Assembly: GCA_023819255.1 (NCBI GenBank) | Contig: JAMWBU010000018.1 | Coordinates: 1-37,378, forward strand | Direction: 5' to 3' | Length of the DNA: 37,378 bases | Source: Candidatus Omnitrophota bacterium | Lineage (GTDB): Bacteria; Ratteibacteria; UBA8468; B48-G9; DTJG01 | Shown: positions 6,088-33,210 of the stretch, in pieces | How positions within the stretch are numbered: the first letter of the stretch is position 1 | Layout: every line of letters starts with the position of its first letter | Position numbers and translations under genes: made by a program | Notes under the pieces: generated by a model | The model's input: the letters and a program-made list of their open reading frames with translations, nothing else | Database searches by the model: none | Told to the model about the DNA's origin: nothing

Positions 6088-6857
6088 AATTTTTTGCCAC
6101 GCCTTTTCACTGTGTCAGAAAGGCTTATTGGCTCAACATTTTTCTTCTGGGCGCGAAAGACAGAAAGATGCGGAATATCTTCGAATGCCTTTTCAACAGA
6201 TGAAAAACTTTCTTCAGAAAGGGGTAAAACCGCGCTGTCTCTTAACGGAGTATTAAGATAGACGATATCAGGTTTTAGTTTTCTGCATATTCGGGCGATG
6301 TCCTTTGCTTCTTTAAGATTTTCTTCAACAAACATTGATTGTATTGTAAAAATTCCTCTGTAAATTTTTCTGAAATCCACGAGCGCCTCGATTATTTTTT
6401 CAATCCTGATCTCGCAGCACGGACTATTCATTTTTTCAAAGGTTTTTTGCGTTGCGGCGTCTATTTTGAAGGAAATAAGGTCCATCGCAATAATATCCTG
6501 CTGGACTGAAGCATCTGTGATTGTGGAGCTATTTGTAAGAAGGGCGCACCTTCCTTTTTTCTCTTTTTTTATCCACAAAGCCACTTCCTTGAGGTTTCTG
6601 GCAAGAGTTGGTTCTCCCCTTCCCGAAAATGTGTAATAATCAATTTTAACTTCAGGGATCTGCTTCAGTTCGTTAATTATATCTGCAGTTGGTACGAAAA
6701 TTTTTCTTTCGCAAGAACAAGTATCTGTCTTTCCCACCTGGCAGTAGACGCAGTCAAAACTGCACATCTTTTCTGATTGTGATAGTAGATCAATTCCGAG
6801 TGAACTGCCCAATCGCCATGAACTTACTGGACCATAAATATATCTAAACACTGACAT
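6084..6857 (-). CDS. Radical SAM protein of the COG0731 (wyosine-synthase-like) family
   Basis: A 257-residue protein beginning MSVFRYIYGPVSSWRLG, the standard start of bacterial COG0731 proteins (YGPVPSRRLG-type), then the iron-sulfur motif C32-x3-C36-x2-C39 (CSFDCVYC). GRGEPT is the usual SAM-binding GGE-like strand. The archaeal relative makes wyosine on tRNA-Phe, but bacteria lack that modification and the bacterial role is unknown. I chose ATG 6857 rather than the upstream ATG at 6902 because the family motif starts here; this leaves a 14-nt overlap with the kinase gene. No clear ribosome-binding site is visible, so translation may be coupled. Confidence 0.85.
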   Translation of the reverse strand: MSVFRYIYGPVSSWRLGSSLGIDLLSQSEKMCSFDCVYCQVGKTDTCSCERKIFVPTADIINELKQIPEVKIDYYTFSGRGEPTLARNLKEVALWIKKEKKGRCALLTNSSTITDASVQQDIIAMDLISFKIDAATQKTFEKMNSPCCEIRIEKIIEALVDFRKIYRGIFTIQSMFVEENLKEAKDIARICRKLKPDIVYLNTPLRDSAVLPLSEESFSSVEKAFEDIPHLSVFRAQKKNVEPISLSDTVKRRGKKL

Positions 6858-8352
6858 TGTATTTTTCAAGGATGAGCGCGCCATCCGCTGCGTTGCAAAC
6901 ATATATCGCTGTGGTAAGTCCCATTGGGATGTAATATTTTTTTTCTAATGTTTCAACAACTTTATCTGTGCTTGATAAATCCGCCATTATCACCACGCAC
7001 CCTCCAAGCCCTGCCCCTGTTAATTTTGCTCCATACACACCCGGTATTTCTTTCACACAGTCAACGATAAAATCAAGCTCCTTTCTGCTGCACCTGTAAC
7101 ATCCTGGCTGCAAATGAATCTCTGCCTCCCTGATTTTTTTTCTTACCTTTTCCTTAAGTGTCAATAATGTCTTATCATCGGCATGCCATTCCCATGGATT
7201 TTCAATCCCATTTTTATATCTGACAACTCTGTCGCCATCATGTGAAACATACATCAGTTTCCCAAAGCCGTATACATCTTCTTTCTGAAGATATTCAGCG
7301 CATATCCTGCTTCTTTCACATTCAAAAATTCCGTAAGAAACAACATCCCTTATTCTGTATTGCCCGGTATCGGGGTGGGTCTGGAAAAGGATGTTAAGTT
7401 TCTCACAGGACTCAAAAAGAGCCTGATATATATTTTCTCTTGTTGCACTTTCCGGAAGAGAAAGCAATAGATCATAGATTCTGTCATGGCTTCCAAGTAC
7501 TTCCGGATTAATATCCCTCAGAAACCTGATGTCAGCAGGTAAACTGTTATTAAATTTCTTTAGCATTTCCAATCCTATTTCATAACACGCGATTCGCTGA
7601 TTAAAAATTCCCTTCGCCTCAGTAGATTTTTTTGCTTCAATCAAAGTGTTTGCAATTATGACCCTGATGTTTTTGAAAAATGGGAAATATTCAACAGTGA
7701 ATGGATAAAACCTTATATGAGATATTGTGTCTTTTTTACAGAAAACCATTGCAGCATGGTCTCCCCACCCTCCCCGAGTTCCTACAAACCATTCTGCCCT
7801 TCCTGCCCATTCAACAAGATCCGCCAAGGGAAGTTCAATACCACTTGCATGACATGCTGCAATCATTGCGCCTGTTACCAGGGTTGATGAGGAACTTAAT
7901 CCTGCACCTTGAGGAACGTTTCCCCAGCAAACCAGATTACAGCCGACTATTTTTTTCTCAGGCATTTTATGCTGAAGGTAGACAAAAGCGCATTTTATGT
8001 AATTAGCCCATGAATGTTCAACCTTAACATTCCTTATGGCTATTTCCCAGTCAAAAGAACTATCAGGTGTTTCATTTTTGATATCAAATTCAAATGGCTT
8101 GTATGCTGAATCAAGATTCACCGCAGAAACCCTGGTGTCTTTTCTTTTACTTCCAACAATCCAGAAATTTTTGTCCACTGCAACATAATTCAACCATCCA
8201 CCCCTGTGGTCAATATGGGTTCCAAGAAGGTTCACCCTCGCAGGCACTCTGATCAAAAATACTTCATTCTGGTTGAATTTCTCATAAAAGGCTGAAAACA
8301 TGCTTCGAACTTCATCGCTCAAGGAAAATTCTGAAATGTTTTTAGCTTTCAT
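6844..8352 (-). CDS. GHMP sugar kinase, galactokinase-like, long form
   Basis: A 502-residue kinase with all three GHMP motifs: RVPARVNLLGTHIDHRGG (35-52), GAGLSSSS (149-156, phosphate loop) and KLTGAGLGGC near 450 (motif 3). GTRGGWGDHAAM (191-202) contains Asp198 at the place of the catalytic base. Galactokinases are about 390 residues and read R-A-P-G-R-V-N-L-I-G-E-H-T-D-Y-N-G-G; the extra 110 residues here are mainly between motifs 2 and 3, and HIDHRGG departs from HTDYNGG. It should phosphorylate a sugar at C1, but the sugar could be galactose, galacturonate, arabinose or another. ATG 8352 overlaps the sulfatase-like stop as ATGA, pointing to coupled translation in one operon. Confidence 0.9.
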   Translation of the reverse strand: MKAKNISEFSLSDEVRSMFSAFYEKFNQNEVFLIRVPARVNLLGTHIDHRGGWLNYVAVDKNFWIVGSKRKDTRVSAVNLDSAYKPFEFDIKNETPDSSFDWEIAIRNVKVEHSWANYIKCAFVYLQHKMPEKKIVGCNLVCWGNVPQGAGLSSSSTLVTGAMIAACHASGIELPLADLVEWAGRAEWFVGTRGGWGDHAAMVFCKKDTISHIRFYPFTVEYFPFFKNIRVIIANTLIEAKKSTEAKGIFNQRIACYEIGLEMLKKFNNSLPADIRFLRDINPEVLGSHDRIYDLLLSLPESATRENIYQALFESCEKLNILFQTHPDTGQYRIRDVVSYGIFECERSRICAEYLQKEDVYGFGKLMYVSHDGDRVVRYKNGIENPWEWHADDKTLLTLKEKVRKKIREAEIHLQPGCYRCSRKELDFIVDCVKEIPGVYGAKLTGAGLGGCVVIMADLSSTDKVVETLEKKYYIPMGLTTAIYVCNAADGALILEKYNVSV

Positions 8353-9767
8353 TTTAAAAAGGGGATTTTACCCCTTGCGGCAAGATCGCTGCAACCAGGG
8401 GCATCCTGTTGTTTCCTTGCCAGTTCGACGAGCCACTCAGGGAAGGTGCCTCCTGCATCATCAATGGCAATTTTCATCAGTTTTTTCACTATTTGTGGAT
8501 ATTTTAAAGCATAGTTAACCCTGAATGCGTCTTTACCTTTTCTTCTGTAAAGCAAAATCCCTGTCATATCCATCTTGAAGTTAAGCCACCAGTCTTCTGT
8601 AATCACAGTAGGATTTGCTCCCCAGCCAACCGTCACATGGTCTCTGATTGATTTTCCCTTTAAAGCATTTTCTAAAAATGGTTTTCCATCCACAGACGGC
8701 CTGACTTTAACTCCAGCCATTTCAATTATTTCAGCTGCTATGTCATGGTGCTGAACAAAAATGTCGCTGGTTTTTCCACTGTATTTTGCCTGAGGCATTC
8801 TTATCATCAAAGGTACTTCAAAAACCTCTGGCATAGATGGATAGCCGCGTTTTCCTATATAAGAACGATCACCAATCGAATGGCCATGATCAGCAGTAAA
8901 TATGATCAGGGTATTTTCTAAAAGCCCCATTACCCTCATTGTTTCCATAAAATAGCCAAACCATCTGTCGCACATTGTTACTTCTCCGCTATAATTTGCC
9001 TGAGTGCGTCGCAAAAGGTAACTATCAAGTTGTTGCTGCGAGTATCCTGATTTAATCTGTTCAGGTCCGTCTTCTTTCAGATACATCTTTCTGTAATAAG
9101 GTGGAACAATCCATGGTTCATGGGGATCAAATGACTCGACTACAAGGAAAAATTTTTCTGCGTCCTGGTTCTGCGTAAGCCATTTTGATGCCTCTCGAAG
9201 AACCTTCGGCGCAAAAAATTCCTCTTCCTGCCACCTGTCATGCATATTCATAATACATTGCTGGATAAACCTGATGTTATTTTCATTTTGCATTTTTTCA
9301 GCAAGCCAGTAATCAATCTGGTTTTTTGTCAATTTTGGACCAGAACGAGCAGGGTCTGTTTCTTGACCGCGAAGAAAAGTCCACTGGTCAAACCCGCGCC
9401 AGAAATTTTTTGATGGTTTAAACATATGATAGACATCAGAAATAAGGGCAGTGCGATAACCGGATTCTCTGAGGATTTCTGATAATGTTGGCTGGTCTTC
9501 TGGAATTGGTCCCCAGCCTGCAGCGCCTACAAAATCTCCCTTAAGCCTAAAATCACCATTGAAAAAAGGATAAACCCTTTTCCCGGTATAAATGGCTCTG
9601 CGGGCAGGAAGCGTGGGAAGAGATTCAGGAAAAGCTGAATTGAAGATAATGGATTGGCTGGCAAAACTGTCAAAGTGCGGAGTATGAACCTTACCCCAGA
9701 AGGGTCTGCCATATGCTCCGATGCAATCTTTTCTCAAAGAGTCAAAGATAACAAGAACTATGTTCAT
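8349..9767 (-). CDS. Sulfatase-family protein with Thr at the formylglycine position
   Basis: A 472-residue alkaline-phosphatase-superfamily protein. Metal and substrate residues are in place: FDSLRKDCIGAYG (Asp9), DPHEPW, FTADHGHSIGDR and GKRG. The nucleophile motif, normally C/S-x-P-x-R-x4-TG, reads T52-LPARRAIYTG (codon ACG, checked on both strands), so formylglycine cannot form. It may use Thr directly, like nucleotide pyrophosphatases and some phosphodiesterases, or it may be inactive. There is no signal peptide, so it acts in the cytoplasm. A GGGGGGAAGA site precedes ATG 9767, with a sigma70-like promoter upstream. It heads the six-gene minus-strand cluster and is followed by a sugar kinase, which suggests a decorated sugar as substrate. 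Confidence 0.9.
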   Translation of the reverse strand: MNIVLVIFDSLRKDCIGAYGRPFWGKVHTPHFDSFASQSIIFNSAFPESLPTLPARRAIYTGKRVYPFFNGDFRLKGDFVGAAGWGPIPEDQPTLSEILRESGYRTALISDVYHMFKPSKNFWRGFDQWTFLRGQETDPARSGPKLTKNQIDYWLAEKMQNENNIRFIQQCIMNMHDRWQEEEFFAPKVLREASKWLTQNQDAEKFFLVVESFDPHEPWIVPPYYRKMYLKEDGPEQIKSGYSQQQLDSYLLRRTQANYSGEVTMCDRWFGYFMETMRVMGLLENTLIIFTADHGHSIGDRSYIGKRGYPSMPEVFEVPLMIRMPQAKYSGKTSDIFVQHHDIAAEIIEMAGVKVRPSVDGKPFLENALKGKSIRDHVTVGWGANPTVITEDWWLNFKMDMTGILLYRRKGKDAFRVNYALKYPQIVKKLMKIAIDDAGGTFPEWLVELARKQQDAPGCSDLAARGKIPFLK

Positions 9768-9901: not shown

Positions 9902-10933
9902 ATGGAAGAAAAGATAATCTGGTTAAACCCAAAAGAAAAGCCCTTTGAAGTCAGGGGTTTCGCCTGGTTTGATAAGGAAAAAATATACAGAAGATTGCCA
10001 CAAAAGTTTCCATACAAAATTCCGCAGGCAGTTGATGAACTTGCAGACTGCACTGCCGGAGGACTGATCAGGTTCAAAACTGATTCAAGATTTTTGTGTG
10101 TCAGGGTTGTTCTAAAAAACACTATCAGTATGCCGCATATGCCAGCGACTGGAAGCAGTGGTTTTGACTGTTATATTGGAAGACCCGGGAAACAGACCTA
10201 TTGCAGCACAGCAATTCCTGAAATGGGGAAAAAGGATTATGAAAGGATGCTTTTTCAGTTTGAAAAAGCCATAACCAGGGATATTACCCTTTATTTTCCG
10301 CTTTACAATGGAGTGAACAAACTTTTGATAGGAATTGAAGAAGGTTCCAGAATCCTGAAGCCAGAGCCGTTTCCTTTGAAAGGAAGGGTTGTTGTATATG
10401 GAACATCAATCACTCAGGGCGGTTGTGCTTCAAGGCCAGCAATGGCTTACACAAACATTTTGAGCAGATGGCTTGGAATTGAATTTATCAATTTAGGTTT
10501 TTCAGGAAGCGGAAAAGGCGAGCCAGAACTTGCTCATCTTGTCACAATGATAAAAGATGTTAGGTGCGTTGTGCTTGATTACCAGGCAAACGCAGCAATA
10601 GAAGGATATATTTCAACCCTTCCAGAGTTTGTGAAAATCCTGCGATCAAGATTCAAAAATGTGCCTTTGATTATTCTATCAAGGCCCGGTGTTGCCGGAT
10701 GGTTCTTTGACAGGAAAACAAAAGATAAGATGGACAGGTTATATGAATTTCAGGAAAAACTTGTAAGAAGCTATAGAATACAGGGTGATAAAAAAATCTT
10801 CTCTCATTGTGGCGCTGAGATTTTTAAGGATATGTGGCAGGAATCGACTGTCGATGGTGCTCATCCGACTGACCCTGGCTTTATGACGATGGCAAAAAAG
10901 CTATTGCCGATCATCAAAAAAGCGATAAAATAA
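9902..10933 (+). CDS. SGNH/GDSL hydrolase with N-terminal GxDLY-like domain
   Basis: A 343-residue cytoplasmic protein without a signal peptide. Residues 1-155 form a beta domain with SGFDCYIG (87-93), a variant of the GxDLY motif. Residues 160-343 are the SGNH part: block I YGTSITQGG with nucleophile Ser169, block II GFSGSGKGE, an Asn in YQANA (block III), and DGAHPTDPG with Asp318 and His321 (block V). The pair corresponds to the Pfam families GxDLY and Lipase_GDSL_3. The role is probably deacetylation or de-esterification of a sugar, as in many glycan operons. It is divergent from the sulfatase-like cluster and converges, with a 3-nt gap, on the FlgD-Ig protein. Confidence 0.88.
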   Translation: MEEKIIWLNPKEKPFEVRGFAWFDKEKIYRRLPQKFPYKIPQAVDELADCTAGGLIRFKTDSRFLCVRVVLKNTISMPHMPATGSSGFDCYIGRPGKQTYCSTAIPEMGKKDYERMLFQFEKAITRDITLYFPLYNGVNKLLIGIEEGSRILKPEPFPLKGRVVVYGTSITQGGCASRPAMAYTNILSRWLGIEFINLGFSGSGKGEPELAHLVTMIKDVRCVVLDYQANAAIEGYISTLPEFVKILRSRFKNVPLIILSRPGVAGWFFDRKTKDKMDRLYEFQEKLVRSYRIQGDKKIFSHCGAEIFKDMWQESTVDGAHPTDPGFMTMAKKLLPIIKKAIK

Positions 10934-12484: not shown

Positions 12485-14929
12485 TTAAAAATCTATCAAA
12501 AGCATTGTAGCGCCTTTGAATTTAACAACATATGAGTCCTTGTCTTTATGAATTTCTCCATTCAAACATTTTACATTTTTTGCCTGTTTTATTTCAAGTT
12601 TTACTGTTGTTTCTCCAATTGTTTCCCAGACAGGCATCACTGGTTTGTCGCTTCCAAATCCATAGTCAAAGATTGCTATACACTGACGATTTTTCCCTGT
12701 TCTTTTTCTTGCCACAACCAGATTTTTATCTATATCGCAGACCTTTTTAATTTTACAAATACCTGCTGGTTCAGTTGTAAAAATTCGCATTTCAGGAGAA
12801 AAACTGTGATATAGCAAAATATCTCCCCATTTAGAATTGTCTCTGTTTTCCTGGTCCCAGATATATGAAAGCCCCTGATAGAATCCTGTGATTCTCACAG
12901 CCCCTTTGCCTTTTGAAACCTGTACCGCAGCAGGCGACTGGTCTTTATATCTCAACAGACATTTTCCTTTTTCAGGAACTGTAAGGTTATACTTTGAACA
13001 TATGACAGGAAAATAAACTGGTTCTGTCGAATCAAGCAATTTCTGCTTTGGAAGTTCAATTGGCAGCCGTCCAACAGATTTAACTCTTTCAATCCTTTTT
13101 GTTGAAAATCCCTTGAGCCAGGATCCTAAATCTATTTCCCTGTTGCATTCATCTCTTAGAAATCCGCCTTCTATAACAAGAAATCCACCTTCTTCAACCC
13201 AGTTTTTTATTTTTTCCCAGGCAGAATTTTCAACATAGGAAAACGGCATAAAAAGAACTCTGTACTTTTTGAGACGATTAGATTCAACATCGTAGCTTGA
13301 GATAAAATCAACGTTGTAGTTTGAGTGAAGCAGCATATAATAAAGCGCAATGATTTCGATATGATATTCAGGTTCCCAGATTTCCTGGGCAGGAGTCCAT
13401 AGTATCGCGATTGACGCTGGTTCTAATTCAGTATTCAAAAGATATTCTTCCGCCTCGCCGGCATCCCGGTTCAAAAGAGCGATTTCCCGAACAATATCCG
13501 TTTTAATCTCCCAGGGCTTGGATTCGTTTCCCCGCAGACATCCATAACTGTACCAGAAAATCTCTGTAATTCCATTTATTAACTGCTGAAAAAATTTGTA
13601 TCTTGCGTAAACAGAAGAATGGTTGGCTTCAACGACATTATAAATTCCCACAGGAAGACCCTTTGCCTGACATCTCATCATATCAACAAGGTACGCGTCG
13701 CCTCCGCGAAGCCATACTTCATATCCTGGCCAGTCCTCGCCCCAGATGCCGTCAAGGTATTGATTATCATATAGATGCCAGAGATCCCATCCATACCCTC
13801 CATAACCGCCTTCGAGATAAGCGATGACAGGCCAGTTCGGACTGCTCCAGGCATATGGAAAATATTTTTTATTTGCCTTTTTTGCACAATCCCACAGGCT
13901 ATTTATTCTCTCCATTCTTACGCGATTTATCCAGTAATAAAGACAGGGATTTTCATTGCGAATGATTGACGCGGGCTTAAGTTCAATTTTTTCTGCTTCT
14001 GATAACTGAATCTTTTTGGTTTTCAGATACTCAATAACTTCAATGCGGGTTTTTTCACCGCCAGCAATATATTCCTGCAAAAGACCTGATGAAATTTCGT
14101 CTCCGAGTTTGAGGTTTCTTACATAGTTGATGGCATTATATCTCTCAAAAACGCCTGAAAGATTGAGAGATGCGCTTTTTATTGCTGGTTCTATTTCCTG
14201 CTGTATTTTGTAATAATCCTGGTATTCGATGGTTCCGCCGCCGTATCTGAAGTACAAAAACCCTTTTTCCATTATTTCTGGTATCAGTTCAGGGTCACAA
14301 TATTGCAAACCATTGATACCAAGGGTCCTGAGAAATTTGTATTGTTTTTCCCTGTACTGTGAAGGGTTTGAAGCACTCAGAAAGCAATCTGTGTATATGG
14401 CAATTTTTTCTGGCGTTTTTTGCCTGTTTTTTATTGTCTGTTTAACAATTTCAAGATTTCTATCAACAATCTCTTCGGCTGTAAGCAATTCAGGTCTTAT
14501 CGGTCCAGGGGAAGATGGCACTGTATAAAGGTAGATATATTCAGTCATTGTTTTTTCAGAAAACTCAAAAGACCTTGAGATTGTATTTCCGCCTTCTGTA
14601 ATTTTCACATCCAGCTTCCATTTTACTGGATTTTCGCTTATTCTTTTGCAAACAAGAATTCTTGCAGATGATGGAATTTTAATCCATCCTGATTGTTTAC
14701 CTGGTTGTATGAAATTTTCTACCCGTGGTTTTTGTTTCAAAAGCGTTCCTTCTGAAATAAATCCGAGATCCGGCCACCAGTTGCCATGTTCATCAGTAAA
14801 AGTTCTGACAAGGGATATATTGCAGGTTATTGGAATGTCAGAAGGGTTTTTCAAATTAACTTCAATTTCAAAGCCATAGGAAATTCCTGAGAAAAATGCG
14901 ATAACTGCTATGAAGCTGGCGATTTTCAT
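12485..14929 (-). CDS. Secreted GH42-like (beta-galactosidase-type) protein
   Basis: An 814-residue exported protein with a signal peptide (first ~19 residues, ending GISYG). Residues about 130-490 look like a TIM barrel of the GH42/GHA type. Around 500-590 comes a GATase-like beta-galactosidase trimerisation domain (PASIAILWTPAQEIWEPE; KYRVLFMPFSYVENSAWEKI; GGFLVIEGG). The last part is a beta domain with KGAVRITGFYQGLSYIW. The same order and a similar GFxxGLxY segment occur in the protein at 30153-33191. Exact sugar specificity cannot be read and I could not pick catalytic acids with certainty. Start ATG 14929 lacks a ribosome-binding site and lies 6 nt from a perfect TATAAT, so its mRNA may be leaderless. 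Confidence 0.8.
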   Translation of the reverse strand: MKIASFIAVIAFFSGISYGFEIEVNLKNPSDIPITCNISLVRTFTDEHGNWWPDLGFISEGTLLKQKPRVENFIQPGKQSGWIKIPSSARILVCKRISENPVKWKLDVKITEGGNTISRSFEFSEKTMTEYIYLYTVPSSPGPIRPELLTAEEIVDRNLEIVKQTIKNRQKTPEKIAIYTDCFLSASNPSQYREKQYKFLRTLGINGLQYCDPELIPEIMEKGFLYFRYGGGTIEYQDYYKIQQEIEPAIKSASLNLSGVFERYNAINYVRNLKLGDEISSGLLQEYIAGGEKTRIEVIEYLKTKKIQLSEAEKIELKPASIIRNENPCLYYWINRVRMERINSLWDCAKKANKKYFPYAWSSPNWPVIAYLEGGYGGYGWDLWHLYDNQYLDGIWGEDWPGYEVWLRGGDAYLVDMMRCQAKGLPVGIYNVVEANHSSVYARYKFFQQLINGITEIFWYSYGCLRGNESKPWEIKTDIVREIALLNRDAGEAEEYLLNTELEPASIAILWTPAQEIWEPEYHIEIIALYYMLLHSNYNVDFISSYDVESNRLKKYRVLFMPFSYVENSAWEKIKNWVEEGGFLVIEGGFLRDECNREIDLGSWLKGFSTKRIERVKSVGRLPIELPKQKLLDSTEPVYFPVICSKYNLTVPEKGKCLLRYKDQSPAAVQVSKGKGAVRITGFYQGLSYIWDQENRDNSKWGDILLYHSFSPEMRIFTTEPAGICKIKKVCDIDKNLVVARKRTGKNRQCIAIFDYGFGSDKPVMPVWETIGETTVKLEIKQAKNVKCLNGEIHKDKDSYVVKFKGATMLLIDF

Positions 14930-16349: not shown

Positions 16350-17891
16350 TTATTCATCCCTGTTGCCTTCAAATTCAGGTCCGCCTGCAGCCACAAACCC
16401 ATTGCTTTTCCCGGAGGTATCATTGGAAACCCAGAAAGAGTATAATGAGCTGTTTTTCAGATAGAATTTGATTCTTACCGGCTTTCTTGAAACATCTGAA
16501 AGATTTTCAACATTTTGCCATTTTACTGGCACGCTGGTAGAATTACAGGAAACAGCAATACATCTTTCTTTTGAAAACGGCTGTATGACGTTTCCGTCTC
16601 TATCAATTATTTCAGCGACAATGTAGCCATTTCTTGAATCCACATTTATAAAAAGGTGTTTTCCTGAAAAATTGAGTTTCCTGGTGGTGAGTGTCAACTC
16701 GCTCTCTCCTGCCTCCATTGAAGCAAAACCATCTCTTCTCAAAATCGCGACAGAACTGCTGCATAATTCTGATTTCTGCTTTCCGGTCGCAAATTTCCTT
16801 CCACTTACATAAAAATAAAGCTTATCATTAACAACAAGACAGCATCCTCCCGCGCTCTGGACATTTCCCCAGTTCCAGTCATCCTTATTTTCAGAAACAC
16901 CGATAAACGGCCGCCTATCAGGTCTGTGCCAGAAAAATCCATCCCTGCTGAATCCGGTGCATATCTCGCATATTTTTGGCCTGTCAGATGGTTGACCGCG
17001 CCATATTGAAAAAAGCCCGAGCATTATACTTTCGTATGCGACGCAATCAAGATTATAAAGCTGGCACCTTGTTTTCAAATCGTCCCTTATAAAGTCAAAC
17101 CTGTCAGAACCGATCCAGACAGGAAGTTTTTCAAGCTCCCACATTGAACCATTGATAATATCGGCTGTTTCATGATATCTTCTAAATCTTCCAGGACCAG
17201 CAGGAATAAAATCCCTTACGCTATAAACCCATAATTTTCTGAAAGGATTGTAAAAAACAGTCGTTCTGTCTCCGGTCTTTCCGGTCTGGAGAATTTTGTC
17301 ACTCCAGTGTATTCCGTCTTTTGAAAAATAAACAGAAATTGTTCCTGTGCCTTTTGCTTCCTTCTCAAGTTCGAAAACAAAAAGCTTGTATCGTTTGTTT
17401 TTATCTTTTTCTTCAAGGTCAAGCCAGACGGTTGATGAATCCCGCATTGATGTGTGCACAATGTTTGTTTCGTTGACAATATCAAGAGCTGGTTTTTCCC
17501 ATCTGATCCCATCCTGAGATATTGCATAACATGTGCTTTTGAGAAATCCGCCCATATACCACATCTTGAAAAGTTTTTCCTCAGGATCATACCAGACTCC
17601 GTCGCTGAACACCATTGATGATGGACCTGCAAGCTGGTGGGTGTCATATGTTTTTTCCCACGGCTTATCAGGAACAAGAACCGGGCTGGATGGATGGAGT
17701 TCCGGCCTGTGAAATACTCTTTTCGTTTCGGTTTTTTCAATAAGAAAATCATCAACAAAAAGTTGTCTGCCGACATCTATATTGACTATCTCCGGCGGTT
17801 TGAGCGGTTCGTGCGGTTCAGAAAGGGACTCTAATGAAAGAACGGGTGGCCATTTTTCCGGCATTTTCAGTCCATTATAAAGTATTTCCAT
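16350..17891 (-). CDS. Cytoplasmic beta-propeller glycosidase-like protein (GH43/GH32-like fold)
   Basis: A protein of about 513 residues from ATG 17891 (538 from the upstream ATG 17966, which overlaps the preceding gene by 55 nt). It starts MEILYNGLKMPEKWPP and then NIDVGRQLFVDDFLIE, which is common in cytoplasmic propeller proteins of PVC-type genomes. Propeller blades recur as MVFSDGVWYDPEEKLFKMWY, YFSKDGIHWSD, GFSRDGFFWHRP and NDKLYFYVSGRK. The end (about 450-513) is a beta domain shared with the gene fragment at 1-288. No signal peptide is present. The reaction is not known; the fold fits an arabinanase, fructosidase or inverting hydrolase. It is last in a three-gene group with the UroD-like and jelly-roll genes. 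Confidence 0.78.
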   Translation of the reverse strand: MEILYNGLKMPEKWPPVLSLESLSEPHEPLKPPEIVNIDVGRQLFVDDFLIEKTETKRVFHRPELHPSSPVLVPDKPWEKTYDTHQLAGPSSMVFSDGVWYDPEEKLFKMWYMGGFLKSTCYAISQDGIRWEKPALDIVNETNIVHTSMRDSSTVWLDLEEKDKNKRYKLFVFELEKEAKGTGTISVYFSKDGIHWSDKILQTGKTGDRTTVFYNPFRKLWVYSVRDFIPAGPGRFRRYHETADIINGSMWELEKLPVWIGSDRFDFIRDDLKTRCQLYNLDCVAYESIMLGLFSIWRGQPSDRPKICEICTGFSRDGFFWHRPDRRPFIGVSENKDDWNWGNVQSAGGCCLVVNDKLYFYVSGRKFATGKQKSELCSSSVAILRRDGFASMEAGESELTLTTRKLNFSGKHLFINVDSRNGYIVAEIIDRDGNVIQPFSKERCIAVSCNSTSVPVKWQNVENLSDVSRKPVRIKFYLKNSSLYSFWVSNDTSGKSNGFVAAGGPEFEGNRDE

Positions 17892-17911
17892 TTTCGTTAT
17901 TTTCGCAAAGT

Positions 17912-18955
17912 TCAAAACAGGTTTCTGTTGATTACCCTTGATATCGCGCAAAGATTTTCCTGCCATCTATCTTGGGGGATATCTTCTGTTATTCCGATGA
18001 TTAACCTGGATCCACCTGAGGCATCGATGATTTCCTGCGTTGCATTTTCAATTTTTTCAATTGAATAAAGATGCAAAGAAGATGGAAAGTTTATCCACAA
18101 TATCTTGTCTTTCCACACATCAAACGCTTCTTTGATTGTCATATCTGTGTCTGGCGCAGGAGAAAATGCTTCAATATAATCAAGGCCTGATTTTGCGACA
18201 AGGTCTGCCCAGATTTTATTGTTTCCGTCAAGATGGCATCCAAGAAGTTTCCCATGCCTGTGAAAAACTTCAGCAGCTTCATTGTGATGGGGCAAAACAT
18301 ACTTCTGGTATCTTTCTCTTCCCATAACATTTCCTGTCTCATTTCCTCCAAAGTTTGCAATCAATGCAGGAGATTTTGCGACAATTTCATAAATTTCCAT
18401 CAGCTTTTTTACCTGTATCTCAACGAGTTTTTCAATCTCATCCCTTCTTTCAGCCCATTCAATAGCAAATGTCTCAACGTCCATCCAGCCGATCATAATC
18501 TGATGAAGCGGAGAAGAACCAATTCCTGCCCTCAAAATCACATCTTCTCCAAGCTCCTTTTGCGCTTTAAGAAAGCCATCATAATCAGGTTCATACCTCT
18601 GGTCCTCAATCATCGCGTAAAGTTTCCTGTAATCCTGAGGCCCTTTGAAGATTTTTTCGACTGTCCAGGAGGTAAATCCTGCTGGTTTTGTCAGGTATGT
18701 TAATTCACCGTATTTAGTTTTGATAATGTGCCTGACGAAAGCTGTGCCATTTTCAGTATAAGAACGCGATTCGTAAGAAACATTATTGGAAATCGTTTTG
18801 AAAACAGGATAGTGCCTGTTGACGATACACAGGCCTTCATTCCTTAATTGTCTTTCGACACTGCACTGCGGAATTTTCGACTCATAAATTGTAAAAGGAA
18901 TTTTATCTATCTTTTCACCCTTCAGTACTGCCTCAACCCTTTTTCTCGGTGTCAT
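17912..18955 (-). CDS. UroD/MtaA-superfamily protein in a glycan operon
   Basis: A 347-residue barrel protein of the uroporphyrinogen decarboxylase superfamily from MTPRKRVEAVLKGE, a typical family start, with an AGGGG site (18960-18964) and TATTT before ATG 18955. It is not a heme UroD: it lacks the usual N-terminal RQAGR motif of that enzyme. The methyltransferase relatives MtaA/CmuA bind zinc through H-x-C; here the region reads LLGCHLDGNN, so that motif is changed. GWMDVETFAIEWAERRDEIEKL and GGSRLIIGITEDIP near the end are standard for the uncharacterised branch. It overlaps the upstream gene by 23 nt. A role in moving a methyl group from a methylated sugar is possible but unproven. Confidence 0.85.
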   Translation of the reverse strand: MTPRKRVEAVLKGEKIDKIPFTIYESKIPQCSVERQLRNEGLCIVNRHYPVFKTISNNVSYESRSYTENGTAFVRHIIKTKYGELTYLTKPAGFTSWTVEKIFKGPQDYRKLYAMIEDQRYEPDYDGFLKAQKELGEDVILRAGIGSSPLHQIMIGWMDVETFAIEWAERRDEIEKLVEIQVKKLMEIYEIVAKSPALIANFGGNETGNVMGRERYQKYVLPHHNEAAEVFHRHGKLLGCHLDGNNKIWADLVAKSGLDYIEAFSPAPDTDMTIKEAFDVWKDKILWINFPSSLHLYSIEKIENATQEIIDASGGSRLIIGITEDIPQDRWQENLCAISRVINRNLF

Positions 18956-19661
18956 AAATACCCCTATTGAATTCAATCTCTGCCTCATCAAGCATTACAT
19001 AACCAGATGGAAGCTTTTCTCTGTCAACTTCATAATCCCTTTCTGCCCATCCTTTATAAGGGTCGACATTTTTATCAACTGGCGCAACATTGAGCGGAAA
19101 AAGAACAAAGATTATATCTCCATTGACATTAGCCAGAAGCTTTTCAATGGGTCCTTCTCCATAGGTGTTTTTTCTGTCTTCCCTTGAACCAAGCTGAGTC
19201 CAAAATTTCTGGTCAGGAATAAGGGTGAAGCTCTGTATTGACCAGTCTTTTGTGATTTTTATCGGGTATCCGGTAAAAATCTGATTGACCCATATCTTTC
19301 CTGTATTTCCCTGAACAAGAAGATAAAGATTTGAGCCCTTAAGATCAACTTCGCCTTTTATTTTCAATGTGATCTTCGCGCCAGTAAAATCAGTTGGAAA
19401 ATTGCCATCAACAAATCTATTTCTGTCCGCAACCCTGATTAATGGTTCAGGATTTATGTTCTTATGGCTTGTATGCAGGGCAAAAAGTATATGCAGAAAA
19501 CCCGCTCCAGGGAAACAGTGATTGCAATCAATCCACCACGGACTTTCAGAAATTATTGAGCTATCCTTTATTTCCAGTCGAAAAGCGCCGTTTTTATCCC
19601 ATCCAAGCCAGCCGCCAGGACCATCGTCAAATGTTTCAGTATAGATTATTTTTTCCATCAT
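18933..19661 (-). CDS. Uncharacterised jelly-roll-like (carbohydrate-binding-type) protein
   Basis: A 242-residue protein without a signal peptide. It opens MMEKIIYTETFDDGPGGWLGW, a pattern (FDDGPGGW) common at the start of beta-sandwich domains in PVC-type glycan proteins. Alternating strands follow (KITLKIKGEVDLKGSNLYLL; KITKDWSIQSFTLIP). No catalytic motif is seen. It is first in a three-gene minus-strand group with the UroD-like and propeller genes, so it probably binds or shapes the same substrate. The two first codons are both ATG (19661, 19658); no ribosome-binding site is visible, and a promoter lies 9 nt upstream. Function unknown. Confidence 0.75.
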   Translation of the reverse strand: MMEKIIYTETFDDGPGGWLGWDKNGAFRLEIKDSSIISESPWWIDCNHCFPGAGFLHILFALHTSHKNINPEPLIRVADRNRFVDGNFPTDFTGAKITLKIKGEVDLKGSNLYLLVQGNTGKIWVNQIFTGYPIKITKDWSIQSFTLIPDQKFWTQLGSREDRKNTYGEGPIEKLLANVNGDIIFVLFPLNVAPVDKNVDPYKGWAERDYEVDREKLPSGYVMLDEAEIEFNRGIYDTEKKG

Positions 19662-20304: not shown

Positions 20305-21963
20305 ATGAAAACAGTTGTTCTTTGCGACAGCAGCGACTTTGTCAGTTATCAAAGATTTGAAAACTCAGTGTTGAACGCCCTTGATTTCTACCAGATTCTT
20401 TTCCAGCCCATAGACATCTCTTATACCCTGATTGATTCTGTTGAACTTGATGATGTTGGTCTTCTGATTATTGCTCAGGAAACAACAGCAAAAAAACTCA
20501 GCAGTACTGACTGGAGAGTAATTTTCAAGCAGGTCTACGCGGGGATGGGCCTTGTAATTTTTGATGGCATGGTAAATTCCTATCAGGGATTGATTTCCCA
20601 GTACACTGGAATACCTGAATTCAAGATTGAGAAAACCTCTGAAATTTTACTCGAAGAATCCTGGATTAATTCCATAGCGGCATCAAAAAAGATACGCGCA
20701 AAAATTCCTGTGTTAATCAATACGCCTTCAGAACTTGACGGGGGCTGGAATATCTTTTTGAGGGACCACAGGTTTAATCCTGTTGGGATGTGGAAAAAAT
20801 ATGGAAAAGGAAAGATTGCCATAATAAGCGTTTCCCAGGGAATATGGCACAAAAGTTGCCTTGGACACACTAATGGCTTTGACAGCGTTTTCTGGCGAAC
20901 GCTTGTGTATACAGCAAGAAAGCCCTTTGTTTTCAAAGCAGTTCCACCTTTTGTCCTGTGCAGAATAAACGATGCTTCGGGACTAACTGAAATTGATTCT
21001 CCTGTAAAAAACTTTGGTTATGTTTCTATTCTCAATGAGGCAGGATTTACTCCGCACATTGGTCTTTGCATCCGCGATATTGCGCAACAATCCATTTCCA
21101 CTATAAGAGAACTTTATTACCAGTCAAAAGCAGAGTTTTCTGCTCATTCCTTCACTAAAAAAGCGGAAAACGCAGACCCATCCATATATCTGGGAAGCGA
21201 TGGCAAGGAGTTTTCTTTCGACCTTCTTAATTCGCACTTTCAGGAGATTGAGGATTTTTTTGTCAGGCTCAACATAGCTCCTGCAAGAACCATCAATGCC
21301 CACAGATCTCAGCTTGGCTATAATGCAATTTCTTTTTTCAAAAATCATAACCAGCTTTTTGCGATGAATCTTTTGAAACCAGGAAGAATTTTTTCTGACG
21401 TGCGCGCTCTTTCGTGGGAACCAAAACCTTTTGGGGTTCAGAATTTTTGCATTGACTACCTTGATGAAAATCAGGCCATCTTTAATGCTGTCTTTCATCC
21501 TGGTAAGATTACTGATTCCGGGGCAGACATTGATTTCTTAAATGGTTCTTCTGAGAGATTTTCTGTTATTTACGCAGCGGAAAAAGGGATTTTTCAGATA
21601 AAAAACGGTCTTGAAAATCTTACCTGCGGATGCCTGATGTTTCATGAAAGAAATCTTGAAGAATTGACCTTTGCGGAGTTTGAGACGATCATTGGCATTA
21701 TAAATTCGGAAATAAGAAAACATCCGCACATATATAAATCATATGACTATGTCGCATCTTATCTGAAAAATCAGCTGGATTCAAAGATTGTCAGAATCCA
21801 GCACAAGGATTCGAATCTTCAGGTAATCATTTCAGGAAAAAGTGCAATGGTCCAGTTTATGTTTTGTTTTCTTGAAGATGGTGAAAACATCATTCAGAAT
21901 TTTCTTGAGATTCCGCCGTTTGAAAAATCCATTGAACTTTCTTACAGGATTCCGAAACTCTAA
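20305..21963 (+). CDS. Uncharacterised protein with amidotransferase-like N-terminus and NodB-like C-terminus
   Basis: A 552-residue cytoplasmic protein. Residues 1-200 resemble a class I glutamine-amidotransferase-like (ThuA-type) Rossmann domain: MKTVVLCDSSDF, GLLIIAQETTAKKL, MGLVIFDGMV and GKGKIAIISVSQGIW. Residues about 205-420 look like a polysaccharide-deacetylase (NodB) barrel: FVLCRINDASGL (metal Asp), VSILNEAGFTPHIGLCI, AEFSAHSFT (His) and RTINAHRSQLGYNA. The last 130 residues are a beta-rich tail. The order suggests a sugar-processing enzyme, but I do not recognise a characterised family. It follows the hexuloisomerase by 3 nt and converges on the TIM-barrel isomerase with a 4-nt stop-codon overlap. 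Confidence 0.7.
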   Translation: MKTVVLCDSSDFVSYQRFENSVLNALDFYQILFQPIDISYTLIDSVELDDVGLLIIAQETTAKKLSSTDWRVIFKQVYAGMGLVIFDGMVNSYQGLISQYTGIPEFKIEKTSEILLEESWINSIAASKKIRAKIPVLINTPSELDGGWNIFLRDHRFNPVGMWKKYGKGKIAIISVSQGIWHKSCLGHTNGFDSVFWRTLVYTARKPFVFKAVPPFVLCRINDASGLTEIDSPVKNFGYVSILNEAGFTPHIGLCIRDIAQQSISTIRELYYQSKAEFSAHSFTKKAENADPSIYLGSDGKEFSFDLLNSHFQEIEDFFVRLNIAPARTINAHRSQLGYNAISFFKNHNQLFAMNLLKPGRIFSDVRALSWEPKPFGVQNFCIDYLDENQAIFNAVFHPGKITDSGADIDFLNGSSERFSVIYAAEKGIFQIKNGLENLTCGCLMFHERNLEELTFAEFETIIGIINSEIRKHPHIYKSYDYVASYLKNQLDSKIVRIQHKDSNLQVIISGKSAMVQFMFCFLEDGENIIQNFLEIPPFEKSIELSYRIPKL

Positions 21964-30152: not shown

Positions 30153-33100
30153 TCAGTAAAGAATCTTGATGAAATCAGTTTGTTTCAAGGGCATAGAAAA
30201 CTTGACTGAGTCTTTTCCCTGAACAAATTTTATTTTCCCGCAATGTGCCGATTCAATTGATCTCACAGGTTTTTTTACCACCACCTCAAAATTGACCCTT
30301 TCCTTAGGTTGAAGGGTATAGTTTGCCACAGGGACAAGAATCCCTTTTTCGCATTCCATTGCAACAGCATCAATAAGCGCTGTATCGCACACAACAGGCA
30401 TTTTAAGCTTTGCTTCTTTTGCAGGAGTTGTAATCAGATTCCTGATGTGCTGCGGGTATTGCCAGGGGTTGTAGGAGCGAACCAGCAATTGTGTTTCAGT
30501 GGCAATTTTATCGGATTGTGGCGCAACAACCTGCTGAATGTTGACTCCCTGAGCGATTTTGTTTCTGTGGACAAGCGCCTGATAAGCATAAGCAAGGCCA
30601 GGTAAAAACCCAGAGTAATAAACAGTTCCCTTTCCTGCCTTTCCTGAAACGATTGCAGGGGTTTTGTCTGAAAATGTTGCGAGAATTTGAGAATCTGATT
30701 CTGGTTCAATCTGTTGTTTTAAAGACAGAACCGGAATCTCCTGATCATTCAATAAAATCCTGTCTTGAGGCTTAAGCATATCGAGATACCTTCCACTTGA
30801 AAGATATGTTTGAAGAACCTGCAATTGCTGTCGTTTTGCAGGCAAAATATCGTCCAGAATATTAATCGGTTTATTGTAATGGTCTTTTGAACCGGCGCCA
30901 GCGCTTAAAAACAAAATTCCGCCATTTTTTACCCATTGCTTCAATTTTTCAGCTGCTTCAGGGATAATATTTTGTCCGGAAAAGTAGCAGACCTTATATC
31001 CAGAGAGCCCTTTTTCAATAAGTGTTTGTTCAGAGATAAAATCCACTGGAATCTGGCTGTGTGTCAGCGCAAGCCATGTGAACATTCTTTCAAAGCCAGG
31101 GCTGTAATTTTTCTTCAGGTCCCATATATCAGAACTTTGAGAATATATGATGGCAACCTGCGATGGAATTTTCTTTGCTGGCACCAGCATATCTTCAGCC
31201 CAGCCAATCTCCCTTATTATTTCTGCCTGTGAATACCACTTTTCGGGATGCGAATACAGGGCAGAGCACTTCCAGGGCGGTCCTCCTTCATGTCCTGCCC
31301 AGGAAGGACCATAATAAAAGCTCTGAAATACCTTAACATCCCTTGCGACCTGGCTTGCAGTAATTGTTTTAAAATCCCAGGGCAGCCTACCCGCATAAAC
31401 AATCAGATAATGCCCGAGTACCTGGTTGTTTTTCATTGCCGCAGAGCGCATCAGCTCAACATTGTAGGTGGTTGCTTCCCTTGAAAGGGAGCCGTTTCCC
31501 CAGTTTTCGCTCCACAAAGCGTTCATTCCGCCAGGTTCAAGAATTTCAAAATAATCCACGCCCTGCGCATAGAAATTTGCCACATATGTTGCTCCATCAG
31601 AAAAGTTCGGACAGCAGGGTATGTCCCTTCCATAGGTTTCCTTTATAATGTCCTTTTGCGTTATCATAAAATCAGCAAGCGCTCGAGATCTGAATCTCTG
31701 GCTCCAGTAATAAAGGCCAGGATATTGTTCTGCCTGGTCTTCTGTAACCGGTTTCACTTCTTCCCAGCTTTTTACAAGTAGCTCAGATGGGGTTTTTCCA
31801 AGTTTCTTCAACCACTGAACAAATTTTTCAGTGCACGCGTTGCAGTTAGCAATGTGAGAAAGTGGCTGACCGCCTGGTTCGTCCATAAGGACCGCAAAGG
31901 CAATCCTATCAACTGGAATATTTTTTTTCTTCAACTCTTCTATGTCCGATGTTGCCTTTGCCTTCATTTTTTCAATATCAGGCTGGCTGTAGCATTCATC
32001 TTTGTTAAACCAGAGCCCACCAATCCTTATTCTATCTTTATTTGAAAATCCGAAATAATCGAGTGTTTTCCATTCTCTTTCAACAAGTTTTTTATCATGG
32101 GGTGCAAAGCCACTTTCTCCTGAGTGGAAGCTTGCGAAAAATGGGAAAAGTTCTGGTTTCTTACCGATTGTGGGCCATTTGAATGAGTCGGCGATTTTTC
32201 CTGTGGTCAGAGCAATTTCAAGATCATCAGTAAGTTTTTCTGCTCCCTGCGGAGTATTAAAATCAGGCGGGATAATGATGTGGATACCAGATGGCTCTGC
32301 GTCCCGTTCAATGACCTTTACAATGCTTTTTTCGTCTGGTTCAGAAGCAAACTCAAACTTTACCTTAAATCTCGGAGCAACCTCTGTATAGGCAAATCTT
32401 GGTGAAATTAAAAGATTTACGCCTGTGTCCCAGTACATAAGTTTTGCAATGTTAATCCAGTCGGTTTTTGTGTTGTTTTCAAATCTTTTCCTTCCTTTTG
32501 CCGGAGAAATACCAGTATCAAGGCCATCAGGGGTTAAAGAAAAATGGCCATACCACGGGCTTCTGTAATAGTCAGCGAAAATATGGATATAGAATGGTTT
32601 TTCATAACAATCCCCCACGCTCACTCTTACATAAATACCGGGTCCATATTCAGTATGATCGGGCTTTTTTTCTAAGTCTTTTGTGATAAGGACACAGTCG
32701 ATGCACCTGCTTAACCTGTGAACTGTTTTCTGGCCGGTTTTTGTAAATTCAAGAAGGATTTTGCCTGAAGGAACTTCAGCATCAAGATAGTCCCAGACAT
32801 AGTCCATTCCCAGACGGCTATCGCGCGCTTTTTCTCTATCAGATTTCGTGTCAAATTCTTTTGATGCAATCTCTTTTTCATTATGAAAAATTGACAACTT
32901 AAATGTTCCGCGAACATCAGGTTTTTGAGAATATCTCACCCAGAATCTGTACAGGCCTTTCTCAGCGATATCTACTTTTTGATACGCGAAAGATTCAAAC
33001 TGTCCTGAAGAACCCTGCAGAACCTTTAAGTTTGAAGCAGAGCGAGCAACATCGCCTTCAGCAATCTTCCATCCATTACCTTCCACATTGAAATTTTCTG

Positions 33101-33191
33101 CCTCAAAAAAAATGTCTCTCGAAAAACACGGTGTACAAAATATGGCTGACAAAAACAGAAAATACAGTATCGCAGTTTTTTGCATATTCAT
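30153..33191 (-). CDS. Secreted GH42-like protein with N-terminal CBM-like domain
   Basis: A 1012-residue exported protein from ATG 33191, with an AAGGAG site (33197-33202) 5 nt upstream. Signal peptide about 1-24 (ending PCFS). Residues 28-165 resemble a CBM35/CBM6-type jelly roll that begins FFEAENF. The middle (about 320-660) is a TIM-barrel-like part (VLMDEPGGQPLSHI). About 675-770 is a GATase-like trimerisation domain (PSQVAIIYSQSSDIW; GYKVCYFSGQNIIPEAAEKL; GGILFLSAGAG). The tail includes KGTVYYSGFLPGLAYAY, which matches the 12485-14929 protein. Both may cleave beta-linked sugar chains outside the cell. Substrate unknown. The gene precedes plsY on the same strand but has its own promoter. 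Confidence 0.8.
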   Translation of the reverse strand: MNMQKTAILYFLFLSAIFCTPCFSRDIFFEAENFNVEGNGWKIAEGDVARSASNLKVLQGSSGQFESFAYQKVDIAEKGLYRFWVRYSQKPDVRGTFKLSIFHNEKEIASKEFDTKSDREKARDSRLGMDYVWDYLDAEVPSGKILLEFTKTGQKTVHRLSRCIDCVLITKDLEKKPDHTEYGPGIYVRVSVGDCYEKPFYIHIFADYYRSPWYGHFSLTPDGLDTGISPAKGRKRFENNTKTDWINIAKLMYWDTGVNLLISPRFAYTEVAPRFKVKFEFASEPDEKSIVKVIERDAEPSGIHIIIPPDFNTPQGAEKLTDDLEIALTTGKIADSFKWPTIGKKPELFPFFASFHSGESGFAPHDKKLVEREWKTLDYFGFSNKDRIRIGGLWFNKDECYSQPDIEKMKAKATSDIEELKKKNIPVDRIAFAVLMDEPGGQPLSHIANCNACTEKFVQWLKKLGKTPSELLVKSWEEVKPVTEDQAEQYPGLYYWSQRFRSRALADFMITQKDIIKETYGRDIPCCPNFSDGATYVANFYAQGVDYFEILEPGGMNALWSENWGNGSLSREATTYNVELMRSAAMKNNQVLGHYLIVYAGRLPWDFKTITASQVARDVKVFQSFYYGPSWAGHEGGPPWKCSALYSHPEKWYSQAEIIREIGWAEDMLVPAKKIPSQVAIIYSQSSDIWDLKKNYSPGFERMFTWLALTHSQIPVDFISEQTLIEKGLSGYKVCYFSGQNIIPEAAEKLKQWVKNGGILFLSAGAGSKDHYNKPINILDDILPAKRQQLQVLQTYLSSGRYLDMLKPQDRILLNDQEIPVLSLKQQIEPESDSQILATFSDKTPAIVSGKAGKGTVYYSGFLPGLAYAYQALVHRNKIAQGVNIQQVVAPQSDKIATETQLLVRSYNPWQYPQHIRNLITTPAKEAKLKMPVVCDTALIDAVAMECEKGILVPVANYTLQPKERVNFEVVVKKPVRSIESAHCGKIKFVQGKDSVKFSMPLKQTDFIKILY

Positions 33192-33210
33192 TCTGTCTCC
33201 TTTTGTCAAA

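Follow-up and report, generated by a model that had tools for sequence, protein, structure and literature searches.

The locus and its genes

The window analysed here, a stretch of 37,378 nucleotides from a Candidatus Omnitrophota bacterium, carries on its reverse strand a gene with an ATG start for a threonine-type sulfatase-like hydrolase of 472 amino acids (8349-9767), recognised from its open reading frame and Pfam match. The Sulfatase domain (PF00884) covers the protein from end to end, with 121.9 bits against a cut-off of 25. At the C/S-x-P-x-R site, which holds the nucleophile, the motif reads T52-LPARRAIYTG-62 (9582-9614, reverse strand). This threonine, reported in an earlier note on the same DNA, is confirmed by the translated reading frame and by the letters themselves: its codon is ACG at 9612-9614, where the forward strand has CGT. 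The cytoplasmic location given in that note is also a fair reading. No signal sequence is visible, and there is no room for one, because the protein starts directly with its first strand and the predicted metal ligand Asp9. The protein has no membrane segment and is soluble.

Next comes a GHMP (galactokinase-like) sugar kinase gene (6844-8352, reverse strand), whose start shares 4 nt with the hydrolase stop. The sugar kinase described earlier as the next gene is thus present, but its position is conserved no further than the genus, and one orthologue locus (L008, genome G003) has no such gene downstream. A functional link to the kinase was therefore set aside. A divergent gene (9902-10933, forward strand) encodes a GxDLY plus SGNH/GDSL-type esterase (PF14607, PF14606).

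Elsewhere in the window, three genes without Pfam match (16350-17966 and 18933-19661 on the reverse strand, 20305-21963 on the forward strand; 538, 242 and 552 amino acids) sit in a carbohydrate-metabolism neighbourhood. Two distant paralogues with 24% identity (12485-14929 and 30153-33209, reverse strand) have weak matches to the beta-galactosidase trimerisation domain (PF08532), and their products are likely glycoside hydrolases of uncertain family. An unusual fusion is encoded at 34679-37219 (reverse strand): this protein of 846 amino acids has a 560-residue part without Pfam match ahead of a region, residues 570-785, that matches aminoglycoside 3-N-acetyltransferase (PF02522, 150.7 bits).

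Conservation of the threonine

Scanning of GTDB genomes identified 33 orthologue loci with 51-99% identity. Their records carry the labels Omnitrophota, Latescibacterota, Chloroflexota, Hydrogenedentota, Poribacteria, Spirochaetes, KSB1, Phycisphaerae and Burkholderiales, among others. Threonine is present, at identities of 51-83%, in 31 of the 32 loci that cover the site. The sole exception (L025) reads proline, and as its codon CCC lies inside a run of C, it reflects either a sequencing error or a local loss. A wider set, drawn from further genomes and a plasmid collection, comprised 54 threonine representatives, 18 proteins of a cysteine clade of PF00884, here called PCMPARR after its motif, and 20 classical cysteine sulfatases. 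The nucleophile site is threonine in all 54 family representatives, with all four threonine codons in use, versus cysteine in all 20 classical relatives. The threonine is therefore not unique amid Cys/Ser orthologues, but a family trait, kept in the orthologous clade and beyond. Together with a dN/dS of 0.05-0.07 for the hydrolase gene against its congeners, which indicates strong purifying selection, this conservation rules out a lone mutation or decay. In the broadest sample, a match with an E value of 1e-35 or lower turned up in 31 of 386 genomes, which shows a wide but uneven distribution of the family. Judged by its sequence, the window gene is a member of a large, unstudied sulfatase-like branch with a constant threonine at the nucleophile site.

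Some threonine members differ at the motif proline, which is glutamine in L130, L149, L150 and L135 (T-L-Q-x-R-R) and cysteine in L034-L037 (T-L-C-A-R-R). The genome of the window itself holds seven PF00884 loci, four of which read cysteine and two threonine (C2, the window, and C41). The C41 gene (G000:C41:26974-28062, L064) is a further family member whose site reads SFPTVPNRRDLFTG. The seventh locus (G000:C24, L007) is without its N-terminus in the reading frame found, and groups with the threonine family.

Predicted fold and active site

The AlphaFold2 model, based on 29 orthologues (pLDDT 86.3, pTM 0.90), shows an intact fold in which helix 52-61 begins with T52, in agreement with the earlier view that the fold is not decaying. 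According to a review, the superfamily nucleophile sits on this same helix (PMC11677397). The nearest PDB folds are the phosphonate monoester hydrolases (PMHs) 2W8S, 4UPH and 2VQR, the ulvan sulfatase 6HHM and the arylsulfatase EfAS (9KOQ), with TM of about 0.7 and 19-21% identity to the window protein. The best 50 listed fold matches are all sulfatases or PMHs.

The earlier note also described the remaining metal and substrate residues as kept. This stands for Asp9, 214-DPHEPW-219, 291-TADHGH-296 and 305-GKR-307, but not for the sulfatase LysA, which is replaced by Asp111 (9435-9437; this and the following coordinates are on the reverse strand). The position is aspartate in 51 of the 54 threonine proteins and 18/18 PCMPARR proteins, and lysine in 18/20 classical sulfatases. 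Asp9 (9741-9743), an aspartate in all 92 aligned sequences, and Asp293-His294 (8886-8891), invariant in the threonine and PCMPARR groups, are the predicted metal ligands. His216, the sulfatase HisB, is invariant in all 92 sequences and is followed by the family-specific Glu217 (9117-9122 for the pair), found in 54/54 threonine and 18/18 PCMPARR proteins and absent from the residues common to classical sulfatases. Lys306 (8850-8852), the equivalent of sulfatase LysB, is kept in 54/54, 18/18 and 17/20 members of the three groups. Essentially all three groups thus retain the D9/D293/H294 metal set, R56, H216 and K306.

Residue conservation in the alignment points to R133-G-Q-E-T-D138 (9354-9371) as a family signature and probable substrate pocket. 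Among the 54 threonine proteins R133 occurs in 53, E136 in 49 and D138 in 50, and each of the three is present in 18/18 PCMPARR proteins and unconserved among classical sulfatases. Altogether, the threonine and PCMPARR proteins share P51, W85, D111, R133, E136, D138, N174, F213 and E217, which, D111 aside, are missing or unconserved in classical sulfatases. The window protein carries the full set, T-x-P-x-R with D111, R133, E136, D138, N174 and E217. The shared signature therefore unites the threonine and PCMPARR proteins in a single subfamily, whose members have a common pocket type but either of two nucleophiles.

A cysteine clade with the same pocket signature

The PCMPARR clade, with members from an Enterococcus faecium plasmid (L080), Rhizobium (L074, L076) and Halomontanus (L075), resembles the threonine proteins in pocket signature, metal residues and sugar transporter neighbours. 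It differs in its cysteine nucleophile site, and in the E. faecium plasmid and a Streptomyces plasmid (L082) a gene for a formylglycine-generating enzyme (FGE) lies about 4 kb or less from the PCMPARR gene. The enzymes of these two plasmids belong to an uncharacterised cysteine sister clade with aspartate in place of LysA.

With the classical group as root, the best tree places the PCMPARR clade within the threonine proteins, supported at 98/95 and 100/97, which implies two changes, Cys to Thr to Cys. However, trees in which all threonine proteins were held together were not rejected by the AU test, either with all columns but the site (p 0.076) or with the two motif regions left out (p 0.37), and for this reason a regain of formylglycine is kept only as a possibility. 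The PCMPARR clade may be sister to the threonine subfamily or descended from it. We consider it rather unlikely that the threonine and PCMPARR enzymes cut the same kind of sugar sulfate, with plain threonine having replaced a formylglycine that was later regained. If true, one pocket would serve two interchangeable chemistries, and a formylglycine-free type I sulfatase would follow.

Gene neighbourhood and maturation enzymes

Cysteine sulfatases occur near the threonine genes at 0.29 per 10 kb, versus 0.03-0.12 in whole genomes. One lies within 6 kb in 11 of the 58 threonine loci and none in the other 47, with the loci not all independent, since G179 and G450 are from the same genus and several genomes give two or more. 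On one strand, G018 and G023 have threonine gene, cysteine sulfatase and anSME in this order; G032 has cysteine sulfatase, threonine gene and anSME, also on one strand. This clustering with cysteine sulfatases, three times also with an anSME, speaks against a role confined to phosphodiesters or phosphonates. It ties the threonine family to sulfated-glycan use, and the genomic context favours sulfur. Among the 31 other threonine loci, genes for sugar ABC importers are found near eight, enolase-superfamily (MR_MLE) dehydratases near six and uroporphyrinogen-decarboxylase-like proteins near five, and no phosphonate genes were identified among the scanned neighbours.

The window's own genome encodes one anSME (406 bits, contig C32), adjoining a cysteine sulfatase, and an FGE was not found there. 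Neither maturase was found in three of the 29 examined genomes, all with threonine proteins, although one may be missed because these genomes are incomplete (G026 81%, G017 90%, G439 89%). The PF00884 matches found in G026 and G017 are all of threonine type or fragments of that type. Because some threonine-bearing genomes show neither maturase type, formylglycine is probably dispensable for these proteins. A PF00884 protein of G439, L204 (G439:C42:9692-10564), reads C-M-S-S-V at the C-x-P-x-R site; neither anSME nor FGE was detected in its genome.

Proposed function and alternatives

On balance, we lean toward a cytoplasmic hydrolase of the alkaline phosphatase superfamily that is active with a single metal and would use its threonine directly on an imported sugar ester, either phosphate or sulfate. 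A metal, Mn or Ca by analogy, would be held by Asp9, Asp293, His294 and Thr52. The side chain of Thr52, activated by the metal, would take the place of formylglycine and attack a small imported sugar ester at its phosphorus or sulfur, assisted by Arg56, His216 and Lys306, and water would then release the enzyme from the Thr52 intermediate. Asp111, Glu217 and R133/E136/D138/N174 would form the family-specific pocket for the sugar part. We infer the nucleophile, the identity of the metal and the reaction alike, and the conservation pattern would also suit a binding role. The chemistry favours phosphorus, the genomic context sulfur. By analogy, direct threonine catalysis would be ordinary for phosphorus on this fold, as in the ENPPs, and unusual for sulfur. 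We place phosphorus slightly ahead as the target, because a threonine-sulfate intermediate would be without the usual formylglycine exit route.

The earlier note read the protein as a phosphodiesterase or phosphonate monoester hydrolase proper, in which threonine is a direct nucleophile as in nucleotide pyrophosphatases and sulfate is no substrate. The threonine nucleophile of ENPPs (PMC11677397), the PMHs as nearest folds and the loss of LysA, tyrosine in PMHs (PMC5488252), all speak for this reading, and it is a serious, if minority, candidate. Yet it does not sit well with the enrichment of cysteine sulfatases around the threonine genes, the anSME genes in three of these clusters, the pocket held in common with a cysteine clade that has FGE neighbours, or the lack of identified phosphonate genes in the scanned neighbourhoods. 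The same pocket and the operon-like pairing with cysteine sulfatases would instead be expected of a formylglycine-free sulfatase, with threonine in formylglycine's place and the same kind of sulfated sugar as the PCMPARR clade. A choline sulfatase whose cysteine stays unmodified, without formylglycine, is still capable of many turnovers (PMC6189696), whereas mutation of formylglycine to serine cost the tested arylsulfatases and PMHs much of their activity (PMC5488252). Given also the missing elimination route from a Thr-O-sulfate, we regard such a sulfatase as rather unlikely.

Loss of both the modifiable residue and LysA, and the pairing at some loci, could also be explained by a catalytically dead, ester-binding relative or a partner subunit of adjoining cysteine sulfatases. 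This is improbable, as the metal and anion residues are invariant across 54 divergent members, no cysteine partner was found in G026 and G017, and 47 of the 58 loci are without a cysteine sulfatase within 6 kb. Oxidation of the threonine itself to a ketone, through a maturase of its own, is scarcely credible. Its one point in favour is the anSME gene near some members (G032, G018, G023), for which the cysteine sulfatase alongside is the obvious client. Moreover, threonine genes are present in genomes (81-90% complete) where a maturase was not found, and the SulfAtlas authors state that threonine would give a ketone and that conversion to formylglycine has not been shown (PMC5066984).

Returning to the direct use of threonine, this branch probably cleaves a sulfate or phosphate ester linked to a sugar, with simpler chemistry and no need of a maturation enzyme. 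Automatic annotation names these proteins sulfatases though they are unable to make formylglycine, and sulfatase counts, as well as the glycan diets deduced from them, include them. The threonine family and its cysteine sister clade, with their shared pocket, are well suited to testing why formylglycine is needed in sulfatases at all, as the Thr/Cys swap can be tried either way within a single scaffold.

Comparison with known enzyme classes

The window protein resembles the S1 formylglycine sulfatases, including the Mn-dependent EfAS (9KOQ), in the PF00884 fold and domain, the motif arginine (R56), HisB, LysB and the DHG metal motif; Asp9 corresponds to D20 of EfAS, and Asp293/His294 to D311/H312 (PMC12421950). 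It differs in having threonine instead of Cys/Ser in [CS]-x-P-x-R, and Asp111 instead of LysA. Membership in the EfAS-type Mn arylsulfatases was rejected, as EfAS has Cys61 and Lys110 (PMC12421950). SulfAtlas keeps out PF00884 proteins with threonine at the site, which its authors note for 30 of the 59 Pfam seed sequences (PMC5066984).

The PMHs (2W8S, 2VQR, 4UPH; S1_0) give the best fold matches and share the single metal site of Asp/nucleophile/Asp/His. They have also lost LysA, with tyrosine in its place, but keep a formylglycine formed from cysteine (PMC5488252), where the window protein has Thr52. The latter has neither the PMH tyrosine at LysA nor the Thr/Asp at HisA, where the placing of a one-residue gap decides between Tyr113 and His114, and it scores 102.9 bits with the NCBIfam PehA model (cut-off 900). 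The ENPPs are the precedent for a threonine nucleophile on the alkaline phosphatase fold (PMC11677397). In positions only, their nucleophile and shared Asp/Asp/His metal site agree with T52, D9, D293 and H294; ENPPs bind two zincs, the second through Asp, His and His, whereas the window protein keeps Lys306 as sulfatases do, a hint against such a second site. Full-length NPP membership was rejected, as PF01663 matches only residues 259-297.

Threonine nucleophiles also occur within PF00884 in the lipoteichoic acid synthases (LtaS) and phosphoethanolamine transferases (EptA/MCR), which are membrane-anchored transferases with a T-x-N-x-E type motif. The window protein, in contrast, is soluble and has T-x-P-x-R. 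In our literature search, work on T-x-P-x-R sulfatases was not found beyond the SulfAtlas remark. Known before were threonine members of PF00884, noted in bulk (PMC5066984), and threonine nucleophiles in ENPPs (PMC11677397). New, as far as this search goes, is a T-x-P-x-R subfamily with the sulfatase active site retained apart from LysA, with a pocket in common with a cysteine clade, and often located in sulfatase clusters.
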